Source of the DNA: a virus
DNA length: 28,228 nucleotides
Virus record (IMG/VR): IMGVR_UViG_3300046009_003816
Location: 1 to 28,228 of that record
Reading direction: 5' to 3' (one strand)
The notes under the pieces were generated by a model. The model had not been told where the DNA came from and did no database searches. It saw only the letters and a program-made list of their open reading frames with translations. The position numbers and the translations under genes are program-made. This document shows, in pieces, positions 1 through 19,725 of the stretch; position 1 is the stretch's first letter; the number at the start of each line of letters is the position of its first letter.

Positions 1-737
1 GAGCGGCTACTGCATCGTTTGTACAAAATGCTATATATTCAGCATCAGTATCTCTAAATACAATTACTTTTACCAAAGGTGATGGTACTACATTTCCAAT
101 AACTGTTAATACAGGATCTGGTGGAGGGGGAGGCACAGGAGCTGGTTTTCCATATAGCGGATCTGCCATAATTACAGGTTCTTTAGAAGTTACACAAGGT
201 ATTACTGGATCTTTATTTGGAACTTCCAGTTGGTCACAAAACGCTTTAACTGCGTCTTATGCTATTAGCATAATGGATCAAGGTTTTGTATATACGCAAT
301 CTAGTCCATCTACTACTTGGACTATAAACCATAATCTTAATACTCAAATCCCGCATGTTGACGTTTATGGTTCTGACTATTATGCAGTAATACCTCAAGA
401 AGTAGTAGCTACTACTTTAAATACAATAACAATTACTTTTCCAAATGCATTGAGTGGCTACGCAATTGTATCAAAGGGAAGTGGCACGGCTATATCAGCA
501 TCTTTTGCAACATCTGCATCATTTGCGGCAAATACTCCATTCTACAAAATAGGCGTATCTGGATCAACCATGTATACTATCACTCATAGTTTAAATGAAG
601 AGTATCCCATAGTTCAGATATATGACGCAGTTGATAGAGAGCAAATAATACCGATCCAAATACAGTCGATAAATACAAATCAAGTATTTATAAACATTGG
701 ATTTTTATTTTCTGGAAGTATAGTGGTAAAGAAGTAG
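1..737 (+). CDS. Tail fibre / adhesin-like protein, C-terminal part (5' truncated)
   Basis: The frame is open from base 3 back to the window edge. The Met at 273 is therefore internal, and the true start lies upstream. Bases 57-233 encode one copy of the shared fibre module (FTKGDGTTFPITVNTGSGGG, then GSAIITGSLEV, then GSLFGTSSW). From about 280 the protein changes to two tandem domains of roughly 65-75 residues. The first has TTWTINHNLN...PHVDVYG, the second MYTITHSLNEEYPIVQIYD. Each ends in a hydrophobic strand (GYAIVSK, GSIVVKK). This 'W-T-I-x-H-N-L' domain is, from memory, common at the ends of phage fibre and other virion surface proteins. Between the two lies a short TASFA-type repeat. 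The likely role is a fibre or baseplate-attached receptor-binding protein; the substrate is unknown. The stop is TAG, followed by a gap holding a TATTTATA element. Confidence 0.8.
   Translation, partial: AATASFVQNAIYSASVSLNTITFTKGDGTTFPITVNTGSGGGGGTGAGFPYSGSAIITGSLEVTQGITGSLFGTSSWSQNALTASYAISIMDQGFVYTQSSPSTTWTINHNLNTQIPHVDVYGSDYYAVIPQEVVATTLNTITITFPNALSGYAIVSKGSGTAISASFATSASFAANTPFYKIGVSGSTMYTITHSLNEEYPIVQIYDAVDREQIIPIQIQSINTNQVFINIGFLFSGSIVVKK
57..233 (+). repeat. Fibre module copy 1 (protein-level repeat)
   Basis: Encodes NTITFTKGDGTTFPITVN, a five-glycine run, then YSGSAIITGSLEV and GSLFGTSSW. It is one of eight copies in four neighbouring genes. It lacks the VTGSITAT segment present in most longer copies, going from SLEV directly to TQGITGS. 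Confidence 0.85.
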
Positions 738-747
738 ACCAAAAAGA

Positions 748-755
748 TATTTATA
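748..755 (+). promoter_or_regulatory. Candidate late-promoter element TATTTATA
   Basis: TATTTATA lies in the 38-nt gap, with 20 nt between its end and the ATG at 776. The leader is A-rich with no Shine-Dalgarno. It is one of seven such elements, all in the same orientation, in gaps of 29 nt or more. Confidence 0.5.
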
Positions 756-775
756 AACAGCGCAACAAATAAAAA

Positions 776-3268: not shown

Positions 3269-3270
3269 AT

Positions 3271-3582
3271 ATGGCATACAATCAAGTACCAAAAAATGCT
3301 GCAACAGATGACTCAATACTTTTATTGAGACGTATATTAAGAGCTTTAGAAGCTTCTTCTAACGCAGATTCTTTACAAAGACAGAGAATTAATATAGACT
3401 CTATAACATCGGGTTTAACATTATCTACAGTAACTACTGTATCAGCTGTAACAGCTATAACTAACGCCCTACCAGTAGGTACAAACTCAATTGGTAACTT
3501 TGGTGGTTACACAAACAACGACTTTCAGATGATGAACCAAAGGATAATGTATAATACAGGAATAAGAAGTAATATATCATAA
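3271..3582 (+). CDS. Small virion-associated protein, function unknown
   Basis: A 103-aa protein starting 2 nt after the preceding fibre gene. The N-terminal half is predicted helical (DDSILLLRRILRALEASS...LQRQRINIDSI). The middle is a Thr/Val-rich segment (TVTTVSAVTAITNALP), and the C-terminus is FQMMNQRIMYNTGIRSNIS. From memory, small proteins with a comparable helical start and an 'N-G-I-R-x-N' end sit among fibre genes of many uncultured large phages, with no assigned role. A fibre-assembly or attachment role is possible by position only. Confidence 0.65.
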   Translation: MAYNQVPKNAATDDSILLLRRILRALEASSNADSLQRQRINIDSITSGLTLSTVTTVSAVTAITNALPVGTNSIGNFGGYTNNDFQMMNQRIMYNTGIRSNIS

Positions 3583-3601
3583 AAAATATAAAATAAATAA
3601 T

Positions 3602-6448
3602 ATGGCCATAATTAATAACAATAAACTTGCAATAGATTTACCAGTATGGGAACCATTAAGAGCAGCTCAAGGAGGTAACAGTTCTGCTATATCAACTTCA
3701 TGTACTGCTTTAAATCCTGTAATGCATATAAACTTTGGTAGATATATATACTATATAAATGCTGCTACTAGTTTTTGGAAGTATGATACATGGACAGATA
3801 CATACATACAGTTAGCTTCTCCACCAATCCCTCCAACAACCTTTTCAACAATGAGATTTTTAATGTCTGCTGGTATTGAGGGATTTGTATTAGGAGCAAC
3901 TAATAATACATTGTATGTACCTGCTAACTTTGGCAAAGCTTATGTAGGTTATGATGTATCTATAGTCTCTGGCACAGGCGCCGGCCAAAGAAGAACTATA
4001 TTAGACGTATCTGATGCAATTGTAGAAGATATCGCTATAGCCACTACAGTTACAAATACGCTTGGTGATATAACATTAACAGATACAGCTAAAAACTGGG
4101 GAGTTAATAGGTGGTTAGGATATCAAGCGAGAGTTATTCAAGGCGCTGGTTCTACTCAAGTAAGAAGAATAATAGGAAATTCAGCTAATCAATTGATTTT
4201 TGGATCCACATTGTATGCAGCGTACGAGCCTTTTGCAATCCCTTCAGTATTCTCTCCCGCTATTGCCGCTACTGCAGGCGTTCAGACAATAGTTAGTATA
4301 GAGGCAAATAACGTTACACTTGATTTTCCATGGTCAATTGTGCCGGATAGTTCTTCTCGTTTTAAAGTTGAGGGAGGAGCCATAATATTGGCCTCTTCAC
4401 AAGCTACCTCTAACTATAGTGTGCAACAATATGACGCAATCAGTGATACGTGGTATATTAAAACATCTTTAACTAATTTTATACGCTCTACAGGTACAGA
4501 CGCATCACTGGAGCGTACAGGAGATCAAGCGACTGTTTGGGAGAGAGGTATAGTGACGCAGACTTCAACAACTTCTAGTTTAATAGATTCCAGCAAATCT
4601 TGGAATGTAAATCAATGGGCAAGTAGTAGCTTAAGTGGAAGTTATTATGTTAGAATATGGAGTGGACAGGGCGAAGGTCAACAAGCAAGAATATTAACTA
4701 ACACCGCAACTTCATTAACATATGAGACAATGTCAGTGGCACCAAATTCTGGATCTCAATATTTTATAGATGGATTTGATGCTGGTAGAGCGACTTCGGG
4801 TTCTTTTAATCAATTGATAGATAGTACAAAAAACTGGCCATTAAATAGATGGAAAAACTATGCCCTTAGAATCGTTAGTGGTAGTGGATTTGGAACTCTA
4901 TTACCAATAGCTTCGAGTAATTCTAGCTCTATTACAGTGTATGGATCTTCTTCTTTTTCGTATAATAGCTCATCAGTTTACAATATAACAGCAGATCCTG
5001 ATAAGACATATCTTGCGATCGGGGGTCAGTCTAGTATTGCGTTCTTAAATCTCGCTGATGATTTGCCGTCGTATGGTAGAGACGAAGAGAGCGGTATAGC
5101 TTTAAATGCATCTGCACAATTTGGTAATAATAAACCGATAGGAATATCATTTATGACTGCGTCTGGCACAACAGCTACAATAACAACAGCAGTTAGCCAT
5201 TCTTTTAAACTTAATCAACCAATAACTATTAGAGGTATATCACATGCCAACTATAATGGCACATTTTCTATAACGAGTATACCATCGGCGAGTGTTTTTC
5301 AATATACTATGGCAGGTACACCAAATGCATCCGGATCTTCTTCTCAAAGTTTATCGACTTTAGTTGATACTACTAAGAACTGGAGAACAAATCAATGGGC
5401 AGGTTATAATTTATACATGAATGTGTCTACGATAGCAACAAATGGTATTGCTACGGGCGCAAGTGCACGTATTGTATCTAATACTTCTAGCTCTCTTGTA
5501 TTTGCTGCGCCACAACCACTTGTGCCACTAAATGGAGTTACTCGCTATATATTGACCAAAAACGACATGATTGGTAGTATGTATACTGGTTTTGCTACTG
5601 GTAGTGTGCCAACAGCAACAACCCTAACTGACACAAACGCATTTTTTGTTGGATCTGGTTCTATATCAGGAAACTTACTCACTGTAACAACTAATGTGGG
5701 AGTTAGTGGAAGTCTTGGTATAGGCTCGTTAATAACAGGTAGTTTAATATTTCCAGGTACTTTTATAGTTAACTATGCTTCGGGTACACTTGTAACAGAC
5801 TATTCTGGAAGCTATTTAGTAAATTATACTCAAAGTGTGCCTCTTACGGCTATCACTTCAAGTGGTTGGGTAACAAACTTCTTTGCTGGTAGACGTTTAA
5901 AAATATTAGCTGGGTCTGGTATAGGAGAAGAAACTACTATTGCAAGTAATACAAATACTACATTAACTTTTGGAAGTATAACTGCCCCTGGCTTATTAAG
6001 TTCTTCTTATGCTATTATGCAACAACCAACTCGAAGCGTTGGTATTGAAGCGCAGTGGGCGCAAAATACAACAAATCTAGATCTTAAAGGAAGAAGGATA
6101 TATATCCCTCGCGGTGGCGCTACAAATAACTGGGAATTTATAGATATACCTACTGATAAAGTAGAATTTATAGCAGCAAGTCCATTGGGAGAAACTTTAA
6201 GTACTGGTACTATGACCGCTTATGATGGTGGAGATAGAATATACTTTACTAAAGATGCAACACTAAGATTTTACTATTTAGACACTAATACAAATCAGAT
6301 ACATGGAGCAGGATTGGCGCCATTTGCAAATGGTGCTGCAATAATAAGAAATAGGATGGAAGTATTTACAAGTCCAGACGGTCTTAAATATTTATGGTTT
6401 GTAAAACATACATCTACCGAGGTAATGAGAACTATGTTATATTATTAA
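3602..6448 (+). CDS. Large virion structural protein with Kelch-like and 'KNW..N.W' repeats
   Basis: A 948-aa protein. The N-terminal part (about 45-95) has a Kelch-like signature (GRYIYYINAATSFWKYDTWT, then FSTMRFLMS). Five spaced copies of a beta module start near residues 161, 329, 407, 589 and 752: D-[ST]-x-K-[NS]-W-x-x-N-x-W, then a strand, G-x-G-x-G and I-x-[SN]-N. The last copy is degenerate (SSGWVTNFFAGRRLKI). Residues about 522-575 contain a different domain (SHSFKLNQPITIRGISHANY, NGTF). The C-terminus (AYDGGDRIYFTKD to HTSTEVMRTMLYY) reads like the closing blades of a beta-propeller. It is probably a virion surface or tail-fibre component. It has no recognisable enzyme motif. The gap upstream is 19 nt, A-rich, and lacks the TATTTATA element. 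Confidence 0.75.
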   Translation: MAIINNNKLAIDLPVWEPLRAAQGGNSSAISTSCTALNPVMHINFGRYIYYINAATSFWKYDTWTDTYIQLASPPIPPTTFSTMRFLMSAGIEGFVLGATNNTLYVPANFGKAYVGYDVSIVSGTGAGQRRTILDVSDAIVEDIAIATTVTNTLGDITLTDTAKNWGVNRWLGYQARVIQGAGSTQVRRIIGNSANQLIFGSTLYAAYEPFAIPSVFSPAIAATAGVQTIVSIEANNVTLDFPWSIVPDSSSRFKVEGGAIILASSQATSNYSVQQYDAISDTWYIKTSLTNFIRSTGTDASLERTGDQATVWERGIVTQTSTTSSLIDSSKSWNVNQWASSSLSGSYYVRIWSGQGEGQQARILTNTATSLTYETMSVAPNSGSQYFIDGFDAGRATSGSFNQLIDSTKNWPLNRWKNYALRIVSGSGFGTLLPIASSNSSSITVYGSSSFSYNSSSVYNITADPDKTYLAIGGQSSIAFLNLADDLPSYGRDEESGIALNASAQFGNNKPIGISFMTASGTTATITTAVSHSFKLNQPITIRGISHANYNGTFSITSIPSASVFQYTMAGTPNASGSSSQSLSTLVDTTKNWRTNQWAGYNLYMNVSTIATNGIATGASARIVSNTSSSLVFAAPQPLVPLNGVTRYILTKNDMIGSMYTGFATGSVPTATTLTDTNAFFVGSGSISGNLLTVTTNVGVSGSLGIGSLITGSLIFPGTFIVNYASGTLVTDYSGSYLVNYTQSVPLTAITSSGWVTNFFAGRRLKILAGSGIGEETTIASNTNTTLTFGSITAPGLLSSSYAIMQQPTRSVGIEAQWAQNTTNLDLKGRRIYIPRGGATNNWEFIDIPTDKVEFIAASPLGETLSTGTMTAYDGGDRIYFTKDATLRFYYLDTNTNQIHGAGLAPFANGAAIIRNRMEVFTSPDGLKYLWFVKHTSTEVMRTMLYY

Positions 6449-6466
6449 TAGTTAAATATAAATTAG

Positions 6467-6631
6467 ATGAATCTTAGAGATATAATTCTTGTGTTAGAAA
6501 GAAAATTACAAAACTTACACGTTCTTATGAGATTGGCTCAAAGTACTGGAGATTTGCAAACTATAACTAAATTACAAATAGAAATTATAGAGACAGAAGA
6601 ATCTATATCCACTATAAAAAGCACAATGTAG
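6467..6631 (+). CDS. Small coiled-coil protein (54 aa), unknown
   Basis: ATG at 6467 opens 54 codons ending in TAG at 6629-6631. The product starts MNLRDIILVLERKLQNLHVL and is almost wholly alpha-helical, with heptad-like hydrophobic spacing (I, L, L, L, L, I, I). A second half (LQTITKLQIEIIETEESIST) continues the helix. It is separated by 18 nt from the preceding gene and is followed by two inverted repeats and a TATTTATA element. Its position between complete genes, the clean start and the helix pattern favour a real gene. It could be a small structural or chaperone-type protein, but the size leaves doubt. Confidence 0.5.
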   Translation: MNLRDIILVLERKLQNLHVLMRLAQSTGDLQTITKLQIEIIETEESISTIKSTM

Positions 6632-6654
6632 TCAATTTATAATAAGTAATTGAC
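6631..6654. repeat. Inverted repeat after small coiled-coil gene
   Basis: GTCAATT at 6631-6637 pairs with AATTGAC at 6648-6654, with a 10-nt loop. It begins on the last base of the stop codon. There is no T-tract after it, so it is not a standard intrinsic terminator; it may stabilise an mRNA end. Confidence 0.45.
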
Positions 6655-6659
6655 AAATA

Positions 6660-6683
6660 GTTACCCGTATATTTATAGGTAAC
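6660..6683. repeat. Inverted repeat with promoter-like element in its loop
   Basis: GTTACC at 6660-6665 pairs with GGTAAC at 6678-6683. The 12-nt loop contains TATTTATA (6670-6677). It is reminiscent of the stronger hairpin before the homing endonuclease, but the ribosome-binding region of the next gene lies outside the stem. Confidence 0.4.
6670..6677 (+). promoter_or_regulatory. Candidate late-promoter element TATTTATA
   Basis: An exact TATTTATA ends 19 nt before the ATG at 6697. A TTGACA at 6650-6655 lies 14 nt upstream, too close for a normal sigma-70 pair with this box. Confidence 0.5.
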
Positions 6684-6696
6684 ACTAGCTAAGATT

Positions 6697-8325
6697 ATGT
6701 CAATTAGAATAATATTAAAAAATAGTTCTGCTGTAGGTACTCAACCCACTGTCCAAGATTTGGCATTAGGTGAATTAGCCATAAATACTACAGATGGAGT
6801 AATATTTTTTAAACAGAGCAATGGCGTTTCTGAATCTATACAAAGATTATCGTCTAGTGGAAGTGCAACTGCATCTTATGCATTACAAGCATTAAGTAGT
6901 TCTTACGCAGCTACAGCATCTTTCTTATTAGGAAGCATATCATCAGCTTCGTTTGCAACTACTGCAGCTACAGCTTCTACTACGCCCAATGCTATAGTAA
7001 CAGCATCAGTTAACTCAAATACTATAACTTTTACCAAAGGCAATGGTTCTACATTTGCATTAACAGTAAATACCGGTTCAGGCGGTGGAGGTGGAGGTGC
7101 TTCTGATTTTCCATTCACTGGTTCGGCTATTATATCTGGTAGCTTAGTAGTTACAGGATCAATTAGAGCCACTCAAGGAGTTACTGCTTCTTTATTTGGA
7201 ACTGCGAGTCAAGCAATAAGCTCGTCGTATGCATTATCTTCAAGTTACGCAAACTTATCTAATATACAGTACGTTACTAGTAGTCTACAATCCTTATCAC
7301 AAATAGAAGTATTAGATTATTCTACAGACGTTGCTGTAGACTTTACCGCAGGTAGACTTAAATTTATATTTGGAAATCCAGCCACTCACTCTATATCTTC
7401 GTTTTCTTTTAATTCTACATTTATAACTGATAGGTTTAATAAAGTATTGGACGATTACACAGCTTCAGCTGCGTGGTCAAATGCAGGATACACTTTAATA
7501 TCTGCTTCGATATTTGAAGGTGGCGTATTATTGGCCCAAACAGGAGTTGGTACTACATTATCATATCAAACTTTGGATTCTGGAAGTCACACTTATCTTT
7601 TACAAATAACAGCAAGTAATCCTGCAAACGGAGCGATATTAGTGCAAAGCTCGTCCCTATCGGGAACTTTAAGCAAAGTAAATCCAGGTTCTCCAACAAT
7701 AACTCCAACAGCTAGTATTCAATTAGGAGCATCGTCTAATCAAATAGAACAAGGTGCAACTGGAAGTATCACTTACGTGACAGCTTCTGGAGCTGCAAAT
7801 GGATGGGTATTAAATTTTGTAACTTCTTCTAGAACAAGCCCCATATTTGTTACAGGATCATTGACAGGATCGGCGAGCATAGTGTTTGGAGCTACATCAT
7901 CATACTCTTCTTCAGGCGTTAATGGATCAGATAATAGTCCGGCCTTAGTTACTACTGCGTTGGCAACTAGTACATTTACAAAGATAAGAAGTCTAAGATC
8001 TGGAGCTTCAGTATCTTCGAGTTTAACTCAAAATGAAATAGAAAATATTGGAGGTTGGGATACTACTATAGGTGGAAATGTGGGAATTATATCTAAAGGC
8101 ACTGTTACAAATCCTGGACAATCAACAACTATAACATGGACTGGAGATAAGTACCACTATATAGTATATAACTCCTCTTTAGCCTTTTTAACCAATATAC
8201 AATCATCGGGATTTGGAGTTTTAAGTTCATTTACTTCGTCGTCTCTTGGAGATTATAAAGTGTACAGAACTATTTTACTTCAAGCTGGAGGTGCAGGAAC
8301 AACTATAACCTATGATTTAACATAA
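6697..8325 (+). CDS. Tail fibre protein with N-terminal attachment domain
   Basis: A 542-aa protein. Residues 1-50 (RIILKNSSAVGTQPTVQDLA, then GELAINTTDGVIFFKQ) match the short N-terminal domain seen in many phage fibre and tropism proteins, of the type 'K-x-S...P...L-A-x-G-E-L-A-x-N-x-x-D-G'. Residues about 50-185 are the TASYA / TASFLLGS repeats plus one full shared module (residues 108-172). Residues 185-542 are a unique Ser/Thr/Gly-rich region ending in a beta-rich tip (TTITWTGDKYHYIVYNSSLA ... YKVYRTILLQAGGAGTT). The N-terminus probably docks to the virion and the unique C-terminus contacts the receptor, as is usual for fibres. The next gene starts 3 nt after the stop. Confidence 0.8.
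   Translation: MSIRIILKNSSAVGTQPTVQDLALGELAINTTDGVIFFKQSNGVSESIQRLSSSGSATASYALQALSSSYAATASFLLGSISSASFATTAATASTTPNAIVTASVNSNTITFTKGNGSTFALTVNTGSGGGGGGASDFPFTGSAIISGSLVVTGSIRATQGVTASLFGTASQAISSSYALSSSYANLSNIQYVTSSLQSLSQIEVLDYSTDVAVDFTAGRLKFIFGNPATHSISSFSFNSTFITDRFNKVLDDYTASAAWSNAGYTLISASIFEGGVLLAQTGVGTTLSYQTLDSGSHTYLLQITASNPANGAILVQSSSLSGTLSKVNPGSPTITPTASIQLGASSNQIEQGATGSITYVTASGAANGWVLNFVTSSRTSPIFVTGSLTGSASIVFGATSSYSSSGVNGSDNSPALVTTALATSTFTKIRSLRSGASVSSSLTQNEIENIGGWDTTIGGNVGIISKGTVTNPGQSTTITWTGDKYHYIVYNSSLAFLTNIQSSGFGVLSSFTSSSLGDYKVYRTILLQAGGAGTTITYDLT
7018..7212 (+). repeat. Fibre module copy 6
   Basis: A divergent copy: FTKGNGSTFALTVN (Asn for Asp, Ala for Pro), a six-glycine linker, FPFTGSAIISGSLVVTGS, then ASLFGTASQ. 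Confidence 0.85.
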
Positions 8326-8328
8326 GCT

Positions 8329-9678
8329 ATGCCTATAATACTACCTGCAGGATTTAATGTCACTAGCACAGAACCAGTAGATGCTAGATTTAGTGTGGCA
8401 AATGCTACAGCTAGACTTGGTTTGTCTGTTGCTAACGTATATGAAGGCTTGATAGTGTATCAAAGAGATAACGATACTATTTATGTTTTAGTAAATGCAG
8501 CTCAGCCATCATTAGAAGTGAGTTGGCAAATAATAGGAGCCAATGTTAGCGGATCTTTATTTGTTACAGGAAGTATTACTAGTCTTGGAGGATTTACAGG
8601 ATCTTTATTCGGCACAGCTAGTTGGGCAATAAATGCTTTAACTGCATCTTTTACGCCTAATGCGCTAGTAACTGCGTCTGTAAACTTAAATACAATAACA
8701 TTCACTAAAGGTGATGGTAGTACTTTTCCAATAACTGTTAATACAGGTTCAGCGGGAGGAGGATCTGGTGCAGGATTCCCATTTAGTGGTTCTGCTGTTA
8801 TAACAGGTAGTTTAATAGTTACAGGATCAGTTACAGCTACTCAGGGTTATTCTGGGTCATTATTTGGAACTTCTAGTTGGTCAATCAACGCCTTAACATC
8901 TTCTACATCGACCAGTGCGTCCTATGCAGTCACTGCGAGCGTAGCACAATCTGGTACGGGATCATTTACTGGATCTTTCTTTGGAGTATTTAGTGGGTCT
9001 TTATTTGGAACCTCTAGTTGGTCGATAAGTGCACTAACAGCATCTAATACTCCCAATGCATTAATTACAGCTTCGGTCTCATTAAATACTATTACGTTTA
9101 CTAAAGGGGACGGAAGTACGTTTCCAATAACTGTTAACACTGGTTCTGGAGGCGGTGGAGGAGGTGGTGGCGGAACTACTACAAACTCTCTATTCTTTAA
9201 TGCATCTGGCAGCGGATCAGCACCAGGTACTTCTTTCGACGGATCTGTAGCTTTTACTGCTAGTTACAACACTGTTGGTGCAAATAAGGTGATAACTTCA
9301 GGGCCAACTGCGCCCACTGGAGGATTAGATGGAGATTATTATTTCCAATATGATGTATCGAATACTTTATTTTTCTATACAACTAGAAAAACTGGTTCTT
9401 ACACTTTGGCAGGAATAGACATAGGTAGATTAGTAGAAATTGATTCTGGTTCTGCAAATACATTAACTATACCAACAAATGCAAGTGTGGCTATTCCACT
9501 ATATTCAAGATTTACAGTAACTCAATATGGAGCAGGGCAGACATCATTTGCATCTGGCTCTGGAGTAACAGTCAGAAGTAGGAGTAATTTTACAAAAATC
9601 TCTGCAAGATATGGTTTTGCCAATTTAGTAAAAATTGGTACAGATGAATGGTATTTATATGGAGATATATCATCATAA
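8329..9678 (+). CDS. Tail fibre / surface protein with shared modules and C-terminal cap
   Basis: A 449-aa protein. The N-terminal domain is residues 1-70 (ILPAGFNVTSTEPVDARFSV ... VYEGLIVYQRDNDTIYVLVN ... VSWQIIG), a head domain I recall from other phage fibre-like proteins. Three GSLFGT[AS]SW blocks and two copies of the shared module follow (from residues 121 and 253), the second ending in nine glycines. Residues about 283-449 are a C-terminal domain with GLDGDYYFQYDVSNTLFFY, then a cap (LTIPTNASVAIPLYSRFTVT, QYGAGQTSFASGSGVTVRSR, DEWYLYGDIS) like the terminal domains of many phage surface proteins. It is likely a fibre or decoration protein. It sits 3 nt after the preceding fibre gene, so the pair is probably co-translated. 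Confidence 0.8.
   Translation: MPIILPAGFNVTSTEPVDARFSVANATARLGLSVANVYEGLIVYQRDNDTIYVLVNAAQPSLEVSWQIIGANVSGSLFVTGSITSLGGFTGSLFGTASWAINALTASFTPNALVTASVNLNTITFTKGDGSTFPITVNTGSAGGGSGAGFPFSGSAVITGSLIVTGSVTATQGYSGSLFGTSSWSINALTSSTSTSASYAVTASVAQSGTGSFTGSFFGVFSGSLFGTSSWSISALTASNTPNALITASVSLNTITFTKGDGSTFPITVNTGSGGGGGGGGGTTTNSLFFNASGSGSAPGTSFDGSVAFTASYNTVGANKVITSGPTAPTGGLDGDYYFQYDVSNTLFFYTTRKTGSYTLAGIDIGRLVEIDSGSANTLTIPTNASVAIPLYSRFTVTQYGAGQTSFASGSGVTVRSRSNFTKISARYGFANLVKIGTDEWYLYGDISS
8689..8880 (+). repeat. Fibre module copy 7
   Basis: FTKGDGSTFPITVNTGS with an interrupted glycine linker (AGGGSGAG), FPFSGSAVITGSLIVTGS and GSLFGTSSW. The linker resembles that of copy 1 (TGAGFPYSG). Confidence 0.85.
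9085..9174 (+). repeat. Fibre module copy 8 (half module, nine glycines)
   Basis: The first half only, with the longest glycine run in the window (nine GGN codons, 9148-9174), leading directly into the unique C-terminal domain. Confidence 0.85.
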
Positions 9679-10132: not shown

Positions 10133-12271
10133 ATGAAAGTTGCAATAGAACAAATTTTTAATGGAACAATCCAACAAGTAGATATTACTGGATCATATGA
10201 TTCTACTAAAATAAATAGAGGAAAACATACTGGGCAATACAACTTAGGTTCGGGCGAAATAGATAAGTTTGTAGGTCCAGCGCCATTGGGAGTTGCAAAT
10301 TTTGGAGAATCTTCTTTGGCAATGCCATCAAATATAGTGAGTGCTGTAAAAATAAATAACGATTTGTATTGGATTTTTGGCGCTGATGTAGCAGCTGCTG
10401 CAGTAACTAGAAGAATTCAATTGTGGACATACGTACCATCTACAGCAACTTACACTTTTGTTGGAGCCATACTTGTAAATTATCCAGTTGCAACTAATAA
10501 AACATTTAGAGGACTAACTGCGATTCTTACAAATTATACGACTGGAAGCGTTACAGTTAACGCTACTACGGTTACAGGCTCAGGTACGACTTGGAATACG
10601 GGAATTTCAGTAGGTTCTAGGATAGGATTCGGATCAACAAATCCTGATGCAATATCTACTTGGTATGAAGTGGCAACTATAAGCAGCGACACTCAAATGA
10701 CTATAAGTTCTTCAGCGGGTACAGTCGCTTCTGGATCTCCGTATGTTATTCAAGATCTAATGATGGTGCAAGCAGTAACAGCAGCAACTGCAACAAACGG
10801 AGGTTTATTTGTTACAAAGGGACTTAGATATGAAGATTTTCAAACTTCCCCAAAGTCTATACCATCTGCGTCTGTTGCTGATAAAATAAAAGCAACTTAT
10901 TGGTTAAAAGATGCCGCAACCGTGACTAACGATGTTATTGGAGGCTGCGCAGTTGGAAATTTTGATTCTTGGAGTCAACAATACGTGTATTGCACAGAAG
11001 GATCTGCTACTTCACTACAGATGTATAGATATAATCTAAGAGCCGCATTAACTCCATTAACTGCTGGCCAAATAGCGTTATCGGGTAGCAATGTAGTAAT
11101 CACAGGCACACAAACTGTTACGGGTAACATATCGCAAAATAATAATGGACGTGTAGCAACTTTAAATCATGGATCTGGATTGGGAGTGCCAAGCATTTAT
11201 TGTTTTACATCAACTAGAATACTTAGAATACCCACTGGAAGTGTAACGTCAGGTAATACAACGTTTGTTGCAGACTCAATGTCAGAAGTACCTCCAGGAA
11301 CTACTAATACGAACATATCAACAGGTACATTTTTATCTTTTGATGTAGCCAAAACTATAGATAAGTTAATTATTTTAACTGCAGGTGCAAATGGTACTAT
11401 GTATGTTAGTGATTATTATACAGGAGGTCAACAGCTAGATAGAAGATCTACATGTTTATCTTCTCAAATTCCATCTTCTTTAAGAGATTTAGATAGTCCA
11501 ATGTTTGTACACGTACCGATAGGTAGTACTCCATTTATATCTGTTGAAGATGGATGGTTATTTTGGATGTATGGAACTGCGACGACAACTAATACGAATG
11601 CACTAACAGCGTATCCACTGGCAGCAGATTTTGATACTCAAGCAGATGAAAATAATAGAATAATTTGTCCTAAAATTAATTTAGGATCAAATCCTTCTCA
11701 ATTTTATAGGGTATTGGTGAATGGAATGCAAAACATAGGAGACTTTAATATGGGATTAGCTCCGGATATGTATAAAGTTCAATACAGGACTTCAGGAATA
11801 GATGATAATAGTGGAGCTTGGACAGACGTTACACAAAATGGAAATTTATCTGGAGTTTTACCAGCATCAGCTATACAATTTGCTTTTCAATTTAGAACGC
11901 TAGGAGTAATAATGCTACCTGCTAGAATTTTATCATTAGCTTTAGTTTATGAAACAGTGGATTCATTACCTGCTCAATATAGATGGAATTTTAGTGATTT
12001 TAATTCTGCGACTGGATCTTTTGCGTGGATTCAAAATTCCCTGTTTGGATCTTTACCAACTCATAGCATAGAAATATATAGAGCAGACACCAACGCATTA
12101 GTATTAACACAATCATCTACAGGCAGTATAAACGGAGCTTTTGAATTTTGGAATGGAAGCGTTTGGGCGGGAGGATTAGGAACTAATACTGTTGGAACTC
12201 GCAGAAGATTTGTTCCATCTGGATCTCTACCAGGAAGCATAGATCTTTACGCAAAAATTATAGTTTCATAA
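10133..12271 (+). CDS. Large virion structural protein, paralogue A
   Basis: A 712-aa protein, clearly paralogous over its whole length to the next gene. Shared landmarks are MKVAIEQIF at the start, QYNLGSGEIDKF near 35-46, NDLYWIFG near 76-83, and a beta module near 147-190 (VTGSGTTWNTGISVGSRIGF, then DTQMTISS). A C-terminal stretch (KINLGSNPSQFYRVLVNGMQ, YRTSGIDDNSGAWTDV, RRRFVPSG) also matches. The repeated 'G-T-x-W-N-x-G-x-x-V-G-S-x-I' segment is of a kind found in phage fibre proteins. No catalytic motif is evident. It is probably a tail-fibre, adhesin or surface-spike component. The stop codon directly abuts the ATG of paralogue B with no spacer. Confidence 0.75.
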   Translation: MKVAIEQIFNGTIQQVDITGSYDSTKINRGKHTGQYNLGSGEIDKFVGPAPLGVANFGESSLAMPSNIVSAVKINNDLYWIFGADVAAAAVTRRIQLWTYVPSTATYTFVGAILVNYPVATNKTFRGLTAILTNYTTGSVTVNATTVTGSGTTWNTGISVGSRIGFGSTNPDAISTWYEVATISSDTQMTISSSAGTVASGSPYVIQDLMMVQAVTAATATNGGLFVTKGLRYEDFQTSPKSIPSASVADKIKATYWLKDAATVTNDVIGGCAVGNFDSWSQQYVYCTEGSATSLQMYRYNLRAALTPLTAGQIALSGSNVVITGTQTVTGNISQNNNGRVATLNHGSGLGVPSIYCFTSTRILRIPTGSVTSGNTTFVADSMSEVPPGTTNTNISTGTFLSFDVAKTIDKLIILTAGANGTMYVSDYYTGGQQLDRRSTCLSSQIPSSLRDLDSPMFVHVPIGSTPFISVEDGWLFWMYGTATTTNTNALTAYPLAADFDTQADENNRIICPKINLGSNPSQFYRVLVNGMQNIGDFNMGLAPDMYKVQYRTSGIDDNSGAWTDVTQNGNLSGVLPASAIQFAFQFRTLGVIMLPARILSLALVYETVDSLPAQYRWNFSDFNSATGSFAWIQNSLFGSLPTHSIEIYRADTNALVLTQSSTGSINGAFEFWNGSVWAGGLGTNTVGTRRRFVPSGSLPGSIDLYAKIIVS

Positions 12272-14467
12272 ATGAAAGTAGCAATTGAGCAAATATTTGA
12301 TGGGTCAATACAGCAAGTTCCAATAACTGGTGCTTACGATCCAGATAAAATTAGTAGAGGTCCTCATGTAGGACAATATAATTTAGGATCTGGAGAAATT
12401 GATAAATTCATAGGCCCAAATCCGATAGATATTGCAAATAACGGAAATACTCAATTGGCTATACCGTCAAGTATGTATTCTATTGTAAAGATTAATGAAG
12501 ATTTATATTGGATATTTGGAAATGATGCAGCTGCAGCTTCTACTACAAGAAGAGTGCAACTTTGGACTTTTGTTCCTTCTACCAATACTTATACTTTCGT
12601 CGGTGCAATTATTTTAAATTTTCCTGGAGGAGGCAGTGCCACTGCCATATCGACAAGAGCTGCTTTAACGAATTATACCTCAGGGAGCGTATCTGTAATA
12701 AGTAATCAAGTTACGGGATCAAGCACTACTTGGAATACTGGCTTATCTGTCGGTTCTCGAATAGGGTTTGGCTCAACTAATCCCAATCAAATATCTGCGT
12801 GGTATCCCATAAGTAATATAGGTTCAGATACGTCATTAACTATATCTGGAAGTTTATCTGCTTCGTTGGGAACTCCTTATGTTATACAAGATTTGATGAT
12901 ACTTCAAGCAAATTCTAATAGTAATAATTTATTTGTAGCGAAGGGATTAAGATATGAAGATTTTTCGATTCCTGCAACTAATATACCCACTGCGAGTTTA
13001 ACCGATAAAGTAAAAGCTGTTTATGGATTGTCTACTGTGGGAAGTTCTATGTGCGGACTAGACATTAGTAATTTTGAATCTTGGACATTACAAAGAGTTT
13101 TTGTAGTGGCGCAAGCTGGTCCTCAATTTCAACCTCTTAGATTAGGTTTTGCAAATTTTAGAGCTCCCTTAACATCGTTAAGCGCCGGAGTGCAAACAGG
13201 ATCTTTTACAACGTATAATCAACTAAGTACCGATGGATTTTTAGCGCCTTTGGCAACTGTAAATAATGGAGTTATAGGCACACTTTCGGCTGGTGTATTA
13301 GCAAATACCGCGTCTATGTATTTTTATACGAATCCTTCATTTGGTATCACCGGCGCTGTTTATGGAACTCCTTTGGAGTACATACTTAATGGATCATCAA
13401 GTCTATTTTTAAAGACTGGATTGGCATTTGATGCAATAAATAACAAACCCGGCGGAGCCAATACAAATCTATTTATGCAACCCACGGCTTCAAGTGTAAC
13501 TGTTGATGATGTAACAGGAAAGATACTAATGATAATGGGAAGCAGCGGAAGTCTTTATGCCGTTGATTTGACATCCCCCGCAGGCACTATTACTGCATCC
13601 TTTACGCCTAATGCAGTACTTACAGCTTCAATTAATAGGCGTAGTACAGTCATAGAATCTATGTTACCAAATACACTTAAAAATAAAAACGCTATCCCAC
13701 ACGCACATGTAATTCCAGGAAACACACCAACCCTATCAGCTAAAGATGGATGGATGCTTTTTAATTACACTTCCGCAACTACAGCAACAGTGAATTCATT
13801 TACAGCATATCCTATGGGAGCAGATTTAGAATATGCAAATGTTGTAAATAATAGAGTAATTTGTCCAAGAATAAATTTAGGAGTTACTCCTACAAAATAC
13901 TATAGAGTTTTAGTTAATTGTGCAAAGAATATAGGAGATAGTAAATTTGGTGTAACTCCAGATATGTATAAATTGCAATATAGAACTTCTGGAATATCTA
14001 ATAATAGTGGAAGTTGGATAGATGTTAGACAAGACGGCAATCTGTATCAAGTTACACCAAGCAATGAAATACAATTTGCTTTTCAATTTAGGACAATGGG
14101 CTCTATGATGCTACCTGCTAGAGTTTTATCTTTAGTGCTCTTATACGAAGATCAAGAAAGCATAGCATCTTTTTATAGATGGAATATAGCAGATTTTAAT
14201 CCCGCTAATGGAACTTTTGCATGGATTCAAATAAACTTAAGTCCCATAACTCATAAGTACATTATTGAGATATACAGATTTCAGGATGATCTATTATTGT
14301 TATCTCAAGATACTAATGGAACTACAAATGGAATATTCGAATATTGGAATGGAGAAGCTTGGGTTACTGGATTAGGAAATAATATAATTGGAACAAGAAG
14401 AAGATTCGTACCAACTAGATTAATACCAAAAGATACTAATGTGTACGCAAAATTATTACTTATATGA
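12272..14467 (+). CDS. Large virion structural protein, paralogue B, with a grafted fibre-module fragment
   Basis: A 731-aa protein aligning end to end with the 712-aa neighbour: MKVAIEQIFDGSIQQV at the start, QYNLGSGEIDKF, DLYWIFGND, SVGSRIGFGSTNP, then YRVLVN and GTRRRFVPT at the end. The strongest difference is residues 441-455, TASFTPNAVLTASIN, which is absent from paralogue A. It matches the pre-module sequence of the repeat-built fibres instead. Flanking residues (G-S-L-Y before, RRST after) are shared with paralogue A, so the segment is an internal graft. The role is likely the same as paralogue A, perhaps forming a hetero-oligomer or providing alternative specificity. The final ATGA overlaps the next start codon. 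Confidence 0.75.
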   Translation: MKVAIEQIFDGSIQQVPITGAYDPDKISRGPHVGQYNLGSGEIDKFIGPNPIDIANNGNTQLAIPSSMYSIVKINEDLYWIFGNDAAAASTTRRVQLWTFVPSTNTYTFVGAIILNFPGGGSATAISTRAALTNYTSGSVSVISNQVTGSSTTWNTGLSVGSRIGFGSTNPNQISAWYPISNIGSDTSLTISGSLSASLGTPYVIQDLMILQANSNSNNLFVAKGLRYEDFSIPATNIPTASLTDKVKAVYGLSTVGSSMCGLDISNFESWTLQRVFVVAQAGPQFQPLRLGFANFRAPLTSLSAGVQTGSFTTYNQLSTDGFLAPLATVNNGVIGTLSAGVLANTASMYFYTNPSFGITGAVYGTPLEYILNGSSSLFLKTGLAFDAINNKPGGANTNLFMQPTASSVTVDDVTGKILMIMGSSGSLYAVDLTSPAGTITASFTPNAVLTASINRRSTVIESMLPNTLKNKNAIPHAHVIPGNTPTLSAKDGWMLFNYTSATTATVNSFTAYPMGADLEYANVVNNRVICPRINLGVTPTKYYRVLVNCAKNIGDSKFGVTPDMYKLQYRTSGISNNSGSWIDVRQDGNLYQVTPSNEIQFAFQFRTMGSMMLPARVLSLVLLYEDQESIASFYRWNIADFNPANGTFAWIQINLSPITHKYIIEIYRFQDDLLLLSQDTNGTTNGIFEYWNGEAWVTGLGNNIIGTRRRFVPTRLIPKDTNVYAKLLLI
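13592..13636 (+). repeat. Isolated fragment of the fibre repeat inside paralogue B
   Basis: Encodes TASFTPNAVLTASIN. The first 23 bases match the fibre gene at 8641-8663 at 22 positions, in the same reading frame. Paralogue A lacks this stretch. Confidence 0.75.
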
Positions 14468-15168: not shown

Positions 15169-15176
15169 TATTTATT
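15169..15176 (+). promoter_or_regulatory. Candidate late-promoter element (TATTTATT, one mismatch)
   Basis: It sits in the 79-nt gap between the fibre cluster and the tail sheath, ending 26 nt before the sheath ATG. The rest of the gap is AT-rich, with no stable hairpin found by eye. Confidence 0.45.
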
Positions 15177-16988: not shown

Positions 16989-17582
16989 ATGAAAGACACT
17001 ACAATTTTAAGAATAAAAGTTCCAAAAAAACTTTACGAATCGGTAAGTAAACAATTGATAAGGGAATCCGAAGACGAGCAGATGGTAAAAGTAACTCTTG
17101 ACGAGTATACTGGTAGTTCTTGGGAATACGATTTGGGTAAATGGACTGCAGACAATTGGCCGGCAATCGCAGACGCACTAAAGAGTACATCAACTGACCC
17201 AGGTCAAGCCATGGCAGATTTAGGAGGACAAGTAATGACATTAGCAACTGCTGGTACAGTGATGTTAAGCGCTGGTTTGGCTGTAGCAAAAGACAGCATA
17301 GTAGCCGCAGCTAAAAAAGTAAAAGAAAAACTCGCAAATAAAGAAGGCGCAGCTGTTCCCGCTATATCTGAAGGACTTGAAGAGGGAGACGATCTTTCTC
17401 AAATTCTTGCCAAAGTGCCAGAAGACATAAAATCAAAAGTGCAAGAAGCCAAACCAAAGCCAGAAGACAAAAAAGAATTGGTAAAAGAGTATGAAAGAAT
17501 TTACAAAATGATAGATGGACAATGTTATCGTGTCGACGACGAAGGAAACAAAGTAAAAGTAAATTCTAAGTACTGCAATTAA
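16989..17582 (+). CDS. Orphan protein between sheath and tube, with a hydrophobic segment
   Basis: A 197-aa protein starting 4 nt after the sheath stop. The N-terminus (MKDTTILRIKVPKKLYESVS) is helix-prone and charged. Residues about 74-100 form a hydrophobic, Ala/Gly-rich stretch (QVMTLATAGTVMLSAGLAVA) that could be a membrane or buried helix. A Lys/Glu-rich linker follows (KKVKEKLANKEG, EAKPKPEDKKELVKEYERIY). The last 20 residues hold two cysteines, C179 and C196, around YRVDDEGNKVKVNSKY. I do not recognise the family. The location between sheath and tube genes suggests a tail-assembly or virion role; the hydrophobic segment is odd for that. A membrane-acting role cannot be excluded. Confidence 0.65.
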   Translation: MKDTTILRIKVPKKLYESVSKQLIRESEDEQMVKVTLDEYTGSSWEYDLGKWTADNWPAIADALKSTSTDPGQAMADLGGQVMTLATAGTVMLSAGLAVAKDSIVAAAKKVKEKLANKEGAAVPAISEGLEEGDDLSQILAKVPEDIKSKVQEAKPKPEDKKELVKEYERIYKMIDGQCYRVDDEGNKVKVNSKYCN

Positions 17583-17594
17583 TAGTTATACGTA

Positions 17595-17602
17595 TATTTA
17601 TA
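17595..17602 (+). promoter_or_regulatory. Candidate late-promoter element TATTTATA
   Basis: An exact match ending 22 nt before the tail tube ATG at 17625. It overlaps the end of a 10-bp palindrome, TATACGTATA, at 17587-17596. The leader after it is almost pure A with occasional G and C, with no Shine-Dalgarno. Confidence 0.5.
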
Positions 17603-17624
17603 AAAAGAAAAAACAAAACGAAAA

Positions 17625-18110
17625 ATGCCAATACTTTCTCCAAACGAAATAATGTTTACCGCTTTCGAACCGATGTTACAGCATCGTTTCATATTTTACA
17701 TAGACGGTATTCCTGCCTATATGATTAAAAAGGCAGACGCTCCAGGAGTATCATTTAATGAGATAAAGTTGGATCACATCAACGTATATCGTAAGATAAA
17801 AGGTAAAGCTGAGTGGAGGGACATCACTCTTGGGTTGTACAGTCCCATATCTCCTTCTGGCCAGCAGGCTGTGATGGAGTGGGTAAGACTTCACCACGAA
17901 TCAGTAACGGGCCGCGACGGGTACTCAGATTTTTATAAAAAGGACGTAAACTTGAACGTAGTTGGTCCGTTGGGCGACATAGCTAGTTCTTGGGTGATAA
18001 AAGGAGCTTTCATCAAGGAAGCAAATTTTGGAAACTACGACTTTTCTGCAGTAGAAGCGGTGGAAATCAGCATGACTCTTGGAATGGATTACTGTGAAAT
18101 TCTCTTTTGA
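17625..18110 (+). CDS. Tail tube protein (T4 gp19-like)
   Basis: A 161-aa protein of typical size for the gp19 family. It shows the family pattern: an N-terminal 'F.P.l.hRF.f.IDGIPAY' (FEPMLQHRFIFYIDGIPAYM), KADAPGVSF, then an 'RKIKGKAEWRDITLGLYSPI' strand pair, and HHESVTGRDGYSDFYKKDVN. The family's C-terminal end follows (WVIKGAFIKEANFGNYDFSA, then VEISMTLGMDYCEI). Hexameric rings stack to form the inner tube inside the sheath, through which DNA passes. The gene lies 42 nt after the orphan gene and has its own TATTTATA element, consistent with high late expression. A terminator-like hairpin follows it. Confidence 0.95.
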   Translation: MPILSPNEIMFTAFEPMLQHRFIFYIDGIPAYMIKKADAPGVSFNEIKLDHINVYRKIKGKAEWRDITLGLYSPISPSGQQAVMEWVRLHHESVTGRDGYSDFYKKDVNLNVVGPLGDIASSWVIKGAFIKEANFGNYDFSAVEAVEISMTLGMDYCEILF

Positions 18111-18154
18111 GCTATCATACTAACTAATTTACTGAACTAGATTATTAATTTAGT

Positions 18155-18190
18155 AAAACTCCCAATATTTATAGTAAAGGGAGTTTTTTT
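18155..18190 (+). terminator. Terminator-like hairpin overlapping the homing-endonuclease leader
   Basis: AAAACTCCC (18155-18163) pairs perfectly with GGGAGTTTT (18179-18187), with a 15-nt loop. The T-run extends to 18190, giving seven Ts, directly before the ATG at 18191. It has the form of an intrinsic terminator for tail tube transcripts. The right arm contains the only strong Shine-Dalgarno-like sequence nearby (AAAGGGAG), so the same stem would also block translation of the endonuclease on read-through mRNA. Confidence 0.7.
18166..18173 (+). promoter_or_regulatory. Candidate late-promoter element TATTTATA inside the hairpin loop
   Basis: An exact match lying wholly in the loop between the two hairpin arms, ending 17 nt before the endonuclease ATG. 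A transcript starting just downstream would lack the left arm, so the ribosome-binding site would be free. Confidence 0.55.
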
Positions 18191-18931
18191 ATGCTAAGTA
18201 CTTATTTTAAATTAATTAGAAAAGCGATATCACAAAATAGACAAAAGGGCGATGGAGGTTATTACGAATCTCATCACATAATTCCAAAATCTTTCGATAA
18301 AAAAAGTAGCACAGTATTATTAACCCCGGAAGAGCACTATAGGGCGCACAAAATACTTGTAGAATGCTTCAAACATCATCCAATATATTGCCATAAAGTA
18401 TATTGGTCATTTCACAGAATGTCTTATGATGGTAAAAGAGTAATCTCTGAAATAGAATATAAGCAAGCGAGGGAAACTTTGATGTCTTTTTGGAAAAGAA
18501 AAAAATCAGAAACTCACAAAAAAAATATAGGATCAAAGCATAAGGGCAAAAAGTGGATAATTAATCCAATAACTAAAGATATTAGACAAATTGATGCTAA
18601 AGATCTTCAAAAATACTTAAATGAGGGTTGGATAAACAGCAACAAAAGTGTAGGCCAAAAAAGATCTGAAAGTACCAAGAAGAAAATATCAGAGAAAGCT
18701 AAAAATAGATCCAAAGAAGCTTATAAAAATATAGGATCTCTTGGAAAAGTAGTTTGCGAAAATTTAAAAGATGGTACTGTACACGAAGCAGCTTCAGCTA
18801 CTGAATTGGCCAAAAAATTAAACATGCATTATTCATTTATTCATGATTACTTAAATAGAGGAATAAAAAGAAGAGGGGGTAGTAAGTATTACGAATTCTT
18901 AAATACGCATAAAATTTATTACAAAATTTAA
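18191..18931 (+). CDS. Free-standing HNH homing endonuclease with NUMOD DNA-binding repeats
   Basis: A 246-aa protein. The HNH core is residues 26-54: E-S-HH-I-I-P-K at 26-33, then LLTPEEHYRAH at 43-53. The central Asn expected before 'V.LT' is Ser40. Two NUMOD3-type segments follow (SETHKKNIGSKHKGKKW near 106-122, SESTKKKISEKAKNRS near 159-174). Residues 190-236 form a NUMOD1-like helix-turn-helix (HEAASATELAKKLNMHYSFI, then GGSKYYEF). These enzymes cut DNA of related phages lacking the gene, so the gene is copied in by repair. It interrupts the tail genes between tube and gp26-like genes, is Lys-rich, and has compositional drift from its neighbours. Control appears to be by the leader hairpin. 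No intron was seen, so it is free-standing. Confidence 0.9.
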   Translation: MLSTYFKLIRKAISQNRQKGDGGYYESHHIIPKSFDKKSSTVLLTPEEHYRAHKILVECFKHHPIYCHKVYWSFHRMSYDGKRVISEIEYKQARETLMSFWKRKKSETHKKNIGSKHKGKKWIINPITKDIRQIDAKDLQKYLNEGWINSNKSVGQKRSESTKKKISEKAKNRSKEAYKNIGSLGKVVCENLKDGTVHEAASATELAKKLNMHYSFIHDYLNRGIKRRGGSKYYEFLNTHKIYYKI

Positions 18932-18939
18932 AATATACA

Positions 18940-18947
18940 TATTTATA
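18940..18947 (+). promoter_or_regulatory. Candidate late-promoter element TATTTATA
   Basis: An exact match in the 29-nt gap after the endonuclease, ending 13 nt before the ATG at 18961, the shortest spacing of the set. It would restore transcription of the baseplate genes downstream of the inserted endonuclease and its terminator. Confidence 0.5.
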
Positions 18948-18960
18948 GAAAACAGTTACA

Positions 18961-19725
18961 ATGTCAGATCAAAAATTTGTTACACCAACAGAAAACATAG
19001 AACTACCTTCAAAAGGTCTTCTGTACCCAAAATCTAATCCTTTGTCTTCAGGATTTGTCGAAATGAAATACATGTCCGCTAAAGAAGAAGACATCATCAC
19101 AAACGTGAATCTGCTTAAACAGGGCATCGCGATAGAGCGAATGTTAAAATCTCTTATTAAATCTCAAATAAAGTACGAGGATTTGCTCCTGGGTGATAGG
19201 AACATGCTGTTGATAGCCGCTAGAATATTAGCGTACGGACCAGAGTACTCGTTTAAGTACCCTCACCCAATCACTGGAGAATTTGAGGTGGTTAAAGTTG
19301 ACTTACAACAACTCAATCATAAGAAAGTAGATTACTCAGTATACAATGAAAACAACGAGTTCACTTTCGAGTTGCCGTACACAAAAAACGTAGTTACTTT
19401 TAAAATACTGACCGTAGAGGACGATAACAAGATAGAGCAAGAGATAAAATCTACGAAGAGGGTGTTAGGAGAAGACGCTATTGGTGAGTACACTACGAGA
19501 TTAAAGTACCAACTCACTTCAATAAATGGAGACAGATCTCAAGCTACGATAAGACAATACATAGATTCTGGTAACTTAATATCAAGGGACAGCGCACCGC
19601 TTAGAAAGTATATGCGAAGCGTAACTCCAGACTTGGATATGAACATTAACGCAACCTTCGCAGATGGATCCACTAAGTTGGTTAGCCTACCGATAGGCGC
19701 AGATTTCTTTTTCCCTCAAGATTAA
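18961..19725 (+). CDS. Baseplate protein, T4 gp26-like family
   Basis: A 254-aa protein. The pattern IELPSKGLLYPKSNP, then KYMSAKEEDIITN, LLKQGIAIERMLKSLIK, YEDLLLGDRNMLLIAARILA and YGPEYSFKY is that of the 'T4 bacteriophage base plate protein' family, in which gp26 is required for assembly of the baseplate hub. The middle (FELPYTKNVVTFKILTVEDD, then KSTKRVLG) and the end (LRKYMRSVTPDLDMN, GADFFFPQD) match its usual layout. The Cys pair often seen in the relatives after 'YG..Y' is absent here (YPHPITGEF). The gene has its own TATTTATA element, and its stop is 13 nt before the next ATG. Confidence 0.75.
   Translation: MSDQKFVTPTENIELPSKGLLYPKSNPLSSGFVEMKYMSAKEEDIITNVNLLKQGIAIERMLKSLIKSQIKYEDLLLGDRNMLLIAARILAYGPEYSFKYPHPITGEFEVVKVDLQQLNHKKVDYSVYNENNEFTFELPYTKNVVTFKILTVEDDNKIEQEIKSTKRVLGEDAIGEYTTRLKYQLTSINGDRSQATIRQYIDSGNLISRDSAPLRKYMRSVTPDLDMNINATFADGSTKLVSLPIGADFFFPQD

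Follow-up and report, generated by a model that had tools for sequence, protein, structure and literature searches.

A terminator-like hairpin enclosing a promoter-like element precedes an HNH homing endonuclease gene behind the tail tube gene of related phages

The HNH homing endonuclease gene in the stretch of viral DNA analysed here (the window, 28,228 nt, IMG/VR record IMGVR_UViG_3300046009_003816) is preceded by a hairpin that has the form of an intrinsic terminator, whose loop encloses a conserved, directional, promoter-like element and whose T-run abuts the start codon. We consider it likely that terminator and promoter are fused in this leader, and that the leader belongs to an HNH homing-endonuclease cassette whose insertion site is the tail tube gene's 3' end, at the terminator. 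Rather than having arisen by chance, the design probably functions as a switch and insulator, since dozens of related phages keep it while the letters of the hairpin change in matched pairs.

The leader hairpin and its setting

The HNH gene lies between the tail tube and baseplate hub genes, within the structural gene cluster of a T4-like phage (Table 1), and the same TATTTATA element precedes all three genes. The nuclease core YYE.HHI.P...H is invariant in the family. The protein has no Pfam match, its predicted model is only moderate (mean pLDDT 70.5), and the best PDB match of that model in a fold search, I-HmuI, is weak (E 0.08) and only suggestive; no close member of the family was found in bacterial and archaeal genomic contigs. 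The closest named tail tube protein is that of the cultured Flavobacterium phage immuto (63%), and the host is therefore probably a bacterium of the Bacteroidota. Elsewhere in the window, positions 1-9678 hold several large ORFs with a common repeated module around NTITFTKGDGSTFPITVNTGSGGGG and with ASQAISSS-like repeats nearby, while adjacent proteins of 712 and 731 aa at 10133-14467 have near-identical starts (MKVAIEQIF..G.IQQV.ITG.YD), a tandem gene duplication.

Table 1. Features of the tail tube-HNH-hub region, in window coordinates
Feature	Position	Strand	Evidence or remark
TATTTATA upstream of tail tube gene, late-promoter-like	17595..17602	+	30 nt before tail tube ATG
Tail tube protein gene (gp19-like), terminator region occupied	17625..18110	+	phrog_4542 tail tube, E 5e-25
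Weak degenerate copy of tail tube 3' end (ACTGAACTAGATTATTAA) in spacer	18131..18148	+	motif scan, p 0.02 in window
Left arm AAAACTCCC	18155-18163	+	sequence, folding; common to HNH-less allele (L078/L080)
15-nt loop AATATTTATAGTAAA, first bases of insert relative to HNH-less allele	18164-18178	+	sequence, blastn
Insert or replacement relative to HNH-less allele	18164..18929		blastn against L078 and L080; homology 99% to 18163 and again from 18930
TATTTATA in loop, putative promoter of HNH gene	18166-18173	+	TATTTATWNTAAAG conserved in relatives
Right arm GGGAGTTTT	18179-18187	+	sequence, folding, covariation
T7 run (terminator U-tract) abutting start codon	18184-18190	+	sequence
HNH homing endonuclease gene, 246 aa	18191..18931	+	phrog_655 homing endonuclease, E 2e-19; conserved YYESHHIIP core
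TATTTATA of baseplate hub gene, kept 3' of insert	18940..18947	+	present also in HNH-less alleles
Baseplate hub gene (gp26-like), downstream neighbour	18961..19725	+	PF12322 T4_baseplate; phrog_150

Direct reading of the sequence reproduced, to the base, the 9-bp stem and T7 tail of the original prediction, which had been made from the letters of the window alone. The stem is perfect, four of the seven Ts of the run pair with the left arm, and the start codon follows directly at 18191, with GGGAG 7 nt upstream of it. The element that had been placed in the loop is there, as TATTTATA, and is promoter-like. The terminator character ascribed to the leader is likewise supported, by a G+C-containing stem with a U-tract immediately after it and by an ordinary terminator at the same spot in relatives that lack the HNH gene. 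A loop of 15 nt is long for an intrinsic terminator, which counts against our reading. Scans of the leader for sigma-70 promoters and for terminators returned nothing useful, the latter having missed the hairpin because its loop limit is 8, and an Rfam search of 17000-19500 gave no match at gathering thresholds.

Folded alone (18150-18200), the hairpin reaches -13.6 kcal/mol (z -3.0), and 2 of 200 shuffles are equally good. RNA beginning at 18178, which lacks the left arm, leaves the right arm unpaired (-4.1 kcal/mol, z +0.6), in support of the predicted logic that a transcript started in the loop would escape the hairpin. In a 150-nt context, the folding by which the original prediction was to be checked, the hairpin is still part of the minimum-energy fold but the total energy is unremarkable (z -0.49); its significance comes from the comparison among leaders.

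The original prediction also held that the hairpin hides a Shine-Dalgarno (SD) sequence, and one alternative to our reading is a translational switch, the essential function of which would be to hide GGGAG from ribosomes in read-through RNA. The position of this motif before the ATG suits such a switch, as do the release of the right arm once the left is missing, the GGAGG-like (5-mer SD) right arms in 33 of 65 HNH leaders, and the precedents of I-TevI, segB and Aeh1 mobE (PMC2988022). Counted by distinct arm, however, SD-like sequences are found in only 8 of 21, more than half therefore lacking one, which is no significant enrichment over the ordinary terminators of the same slot (2 of 11, P=0.43), and right arms without GGAG are frequent in homologous leaders (e.g. 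AATAGGCA, GATAGGGC, AAGGCAGG). Nor do the other genes of these phages use the signal: SD-like motifs precede 2.3% of the non-HNH genes of the group, compared to 2.9% after shuffling, and 1.2% of intergenic starts. Bacteroidia ribosomes, in which bS21, bS18 and bS6 hold the 16S tail, fail to recognise the SD, rpsU with its extended SD being a known exception (PMC9976891). With the SD unused in the group and unconserved among the leaders, we rejected SD-hiding as the main conserved function, and we regard a switch of this kind as unlikely. The hairpin could still block translation by its structure, since low secondary structure near the start is a determinant of initiation in these bacteria (PMC9976891).

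Conservation of the hairpin and of the element it encloses

A protein search for HNH relatives yielded a set of 43 distinct close relatives and four more distant HNH genes (L216-L219). All 47 distinct leaders lie behind a tail tube gene, enclose TATTTAT within the hairpin and end in 6-8 Ts followed by ATG (or ATTATG). The original prediction had proposed comparison with other phage HNH genes, and had named the loss of pairing in relatives that keep the gene as evidence against it. The opposite was found: pairing is kept in 47 of 47 leaders (a count that takes in L217, paired on inspection) across about 20 different right arms, and the arms covary. The variety includes CTCCC/GGGAG, CCTCC/GGAGG, CCTTCC/GGAAGG, CTCTGC/GCAGAG, CCTGCC/GGCAGG, GCCTATTTA/TAAATAGGC and CCCTAT/ATAGGG.

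Eight leaders were aligned in one register, in which all 64 pair cells are standard and five of the eight pairs carry double-sided changes. The covariation score of this alignment is 0.670 compared to 0.292 for shuffles and is reached by none of 500 shuffles, while 1 of 500 reaches the score of a second leader set; these counts are not probabilities, because the shuffles ignore the relatedness of the leaders. Slid versions of the eight-leader alignment give at most 0.192, and with these controls and so many independent arm types, chance is a very unlikely explanation. For 16 of the 17 types of arm, pairing with the leader's own left arm is far superior to pairing with shuffled ones; the exception reflects a scoring miss. 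Folding and covariation together place the hairpin over the translation start in upstream transcripts.

The design is largely, though not exclusively, a property of endonuclease genes. A blind scan of 2.9 million viral contigs with the pattern TATTTATWNTAAAGN{3,14}TTTTTTATG, which ignored the stem and the coding sequence, returned 106 stretches with 59 distinct readable sites. The hairpin is present at all 46 sites that belong to this HNH family, compared to 3 of the 13 others, namely L273 and L314, which are zinc-finger HNH genes in the same slot, and L307, a structural gene with a LamG domain. The last of these (L307:10219-11871, minus strand) has the same arrangement, a hairpin with TATTTAT and a T-run directly before the ATG, and is the sole such case seen; the design is thus not exclusive to endonucleases. 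Among 151 distinct terminator-like hairpins from approximately 245 loci, 35 hold TATTTAT and all 35 are endonuclease leaders; control 7-mers mostly occur 0-4 times in the same hairpins, and ATTTATT, which overlaps the motif, 13 times. The design is missing where an HNH gene of the slot follows a terminator that is still intact (L030, L125).

Sequence comparison shows the loop element to be conserved, directional, promoter-like and placed between the arms. In 50 kb of phage immuto, TATTTAT lies within 60 nt before 17 of the 27 annotated genes with an upstream gap of at least 25 nt, and 13 of 14 TATTTATA sites precede an annotated start. Across the loci of the group the motif clusters 20-40 nt before starts, preceding 269 of 371 gapped genes (a count that includes many orthologues) compared to 5 of 48 ungapped ones. 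In the window, 8 of 14 TATTTAT sites stand 15-45 nt before a gene, compared to 0 of 11 for ATAAATA; at 15169, 17595, 18166, 18940, 20068, 6670 and 748, TATTTAT(A) is found on the coding strand alone, at distances of 21-34 nt from the gene start that follows. This element is the reverse complement of the T4 consensus. The T4 late promoter consensus itself, TATAAATA on the coding strand, was considered and set aside, as the directional element is TATTTATA and ATAAATA has no such position in the window and little in relatives. TATTTATA is thus likely to be the late-promoter element of this large group of uncultivated phages, as judged from its distribution. In immuto the element is commoner before structural than before other genes, yet is not confined to them, and the label 'late' is for this reason our own extrapolation. 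A sigma70 region-2 protein was not found in four related records, a result of little weight as gp55-like factors are too divergent, and our literature searches found no relevant paper about this motif, promoters located in terminator loops or the tail tube insertion site.

These observations bear on a second alternative, that the hairpin is the tail tube terminator and nothing else, with TATTTATA unused as a promoter and the HNH gene expressed by read-through. HNH-less relatives do have ordinary terminators at the same place, and in an AT-rich genome TATTTATA is expected to be frequent (9 found in the window, 6.3 expected). However, TATTTAT stays constant from leader to leader whereas the arms around it vary, its distance from the ATG is held within 16-27 nt, it is directional and positioned before genes throughout the group, and it is absent from the loops of HNH-less terminators. 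We therefore judge a terminator without promoter activity to be quite improbable.

Empty sites, insert borders and the spacer

In HNH-less relatives the tail tube gene is followed by an ordinary terminator, with stem, short loop and T-run, and then by TATTTATA before the hub gene; 41 of 44 pass a strict test for a compact terminator at this place and the other three are looser. Two of them, L078 and L080, are approximately 99% identical to the window by blastn over 3.0 kb upstream and 4.9 kb downstream, so that presence of the gene at this one site is sporadic, and genomes that are nearly identical can either have it or carry an intact empty allele. The terminator of L078 and L080 shares the stem of the window but has a short, ordinary loop in which the promoter element is absent (AAAACTCCC-TCACTT-GGGAGTTTTTTT), and homology breaks exactly at 18163, where the left arm ends. 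The left arm is therefore common to both alleles and the insert starts with the promoter-bearing loop. The L078 allele may itself represent loss of the cassette, since its long spacer resembles those of occupied loci. At other loci the 3' junction interrupts the old terminator in its left arm or its loop, and remnants of that terminator follow the HNH stop codon (e.g. L108, L139). In L128 the tail tube stop is followed by the left arm and promoter (ACCTCCCTGATATTTATTATAA) although the HNH gene is missing, apparently a deletion scar left by a lost cassette. More generally, the gap between the tail tube and hub genes is a hot spot of several unrelated endonucleases (L005, L102, L108, L111, L119, L129, L125, L030/L138, L273, L314, L216-L219), which include other HNH subfamilies, a zinc-finger HNH type and ORFs that start MVGIYKI and look GIY-YIG-like.

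The spacer between the tube stop codon and the hairpin (18111-18154 in the window) contains a degenerate copy of the tube's last codons in 61 of 64 HNH-bearing loci, a class defined by the leader pattern itself, compared to 4 of 39 loci without the leader. In L161, for example, the real tube end is TGTATCCTCAACTATTAG and the spacer copy TGCATACTTAATTACTAA; a copy also lies in this spacer in L164, L171, L203, L283 and others, and some loci have two copies (L161, L163, L177). The four leaderless loci with a copy are L129, L086, L116 and L125; another HNH gene is present in L125, L129 has the look of a scar from a loss (cf. L128), and L086 and L116 may be scars as well. The copy suggests either insertion or cleavage at the tube 3' end with replacement of the final codons, or an operator resembling the homing site. 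An operator of the latter kind is known from I-TevI, where it serves autorepression (PMC2988022).

That the inverted repeat is conserved as DNA, as a sequence that the endonuclease recognises or cleaves or as a hot spot of recombination, would accord with insertion junctions at the terminator in many loci and with the use of the slot by several endonuclease families, but is very improbable, since the stem varies freely while pairing and the T-run is conserved on one side only, as fits RNA, and the spacer copy points to a target in the coding end of the tube gene.

Proposed mechanism and comparison with known systems

Under the reading that we prefer, a terminator and promoter fused in one leader, the cassette would replace the intrinsic terminator of the tail tube gene with its own hairpin, which has TATTTATA in the loop (or inner stem) and a U-tract abutting the start codon. 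Polymerase coming from the tail tube promoter would make the whole hairpin and stop in the T-run before the ATG, and any RNA that escaped termination would be structured up to the start codon and poorly translated. RNA initiated from the loop element would begin near 18178-18181, without the left arm and hence without the hairpin, and would be translatable. By such termination and initiation the tail tube gene would still end in a terminator, the endonuclease would be shielded from transcription of a strong late gene and depend solely on a promoter of its own, and the hub gene downstream would retain its promoter.

We tentatively extend this, at somewhat less than even confidence, to a class of mobile cassettes in T4-like phages of Bacteroidota, comprising a replacement tube 3' end, a degenerate copy of that end, a terminator with a promoter in its loop, and an HNH gene. 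Such a cassette would invade the terminator of an essential, strongly expressed gene, rebuild both the gene end and the terminator, and have the latter act as the switch for its own expression; the degenerate copy may be a cleavage-resistant operator for autorepression, as for I-TevI. A selfish gene could in this way settle, at little cost, among the control signals of a virion gene that is essential and strongly expressed, by rebuilding the terminator that it destroys and using the same hairpin for its own expression. The rule of hairpin plus late promoter known from T4 would be extended to phages whose hosts do not read SD signals, and the compact terminator/promoter element, conserved over dozens of phages, is one that can be tested in Flavobacterium.

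Control of endonuclease genes by a hairpin together with a middle or late promoter is established for I-TevI, I-TevII, I-TevIII, T4 segB and Aeh1 mobE (PMC2988022). In the three T4 intron endonucleases, as proposed here, the transcript from the gene's own middle or late promoter does not include the 5' arm of the hairpin over the start, which longer upstream transcripts fold (PMC2988022); they differ in being intron-encoded, in an SD-based host and in having early or middle upstream transcripts, and their promoter is not described in the loop of a host gene's terminator. The likeness to I-TevI that the original prediction drew outside an intron thus survives for the hairpin and its promoter-like loop element, but not for SD sequestration, and early/late timing does not carry over simply, because the tail tube gene is also preceded by TATTTATA; insulation from a strong late gene fits better. 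A position outside an intron, as put forward there, is already known from T4 segB and Aeh1 mobE, which are free-standing and combine a hairpin with a late promoter, Aeh1 mobE being also an HNH gene (PMC2988022). As they are described in that review, Aeh1 mobE interrupts nrdA and segB lies among tRNA genes (PMC2988022), and in neither case has the terminator of a structural gene been rebuilt.

Two further T4 endonuclease genes, mobE and segF, have an intrinsic terminator near the 5' end (PMC2988022), although theirs is inside the coding region and has no promoter in the hairpin. The leader hairpin of T4 gene e is inhibitory and contains a late promoter in its 5' strand (PMC3014915), but the gene is not mobile, its translation is SD-based and the hairpin is not a terminator. 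The tail tube terminator of HNH-less relatives shares the position and the T-run of the leader, and in L078/L080 also its stem, and differs in its short loop without promoter element and in being followed by the hub promoter rather than a start codon. Relative to all of these, what appears new from the sequence comparison is the merging with the terminator of the host gene, the placement of a putative promoter in the loop and the setting without SD, as well as the spread of the conserved design over several HNH subfamilies and dozens of uncultivated phages of Bacteroidota type.
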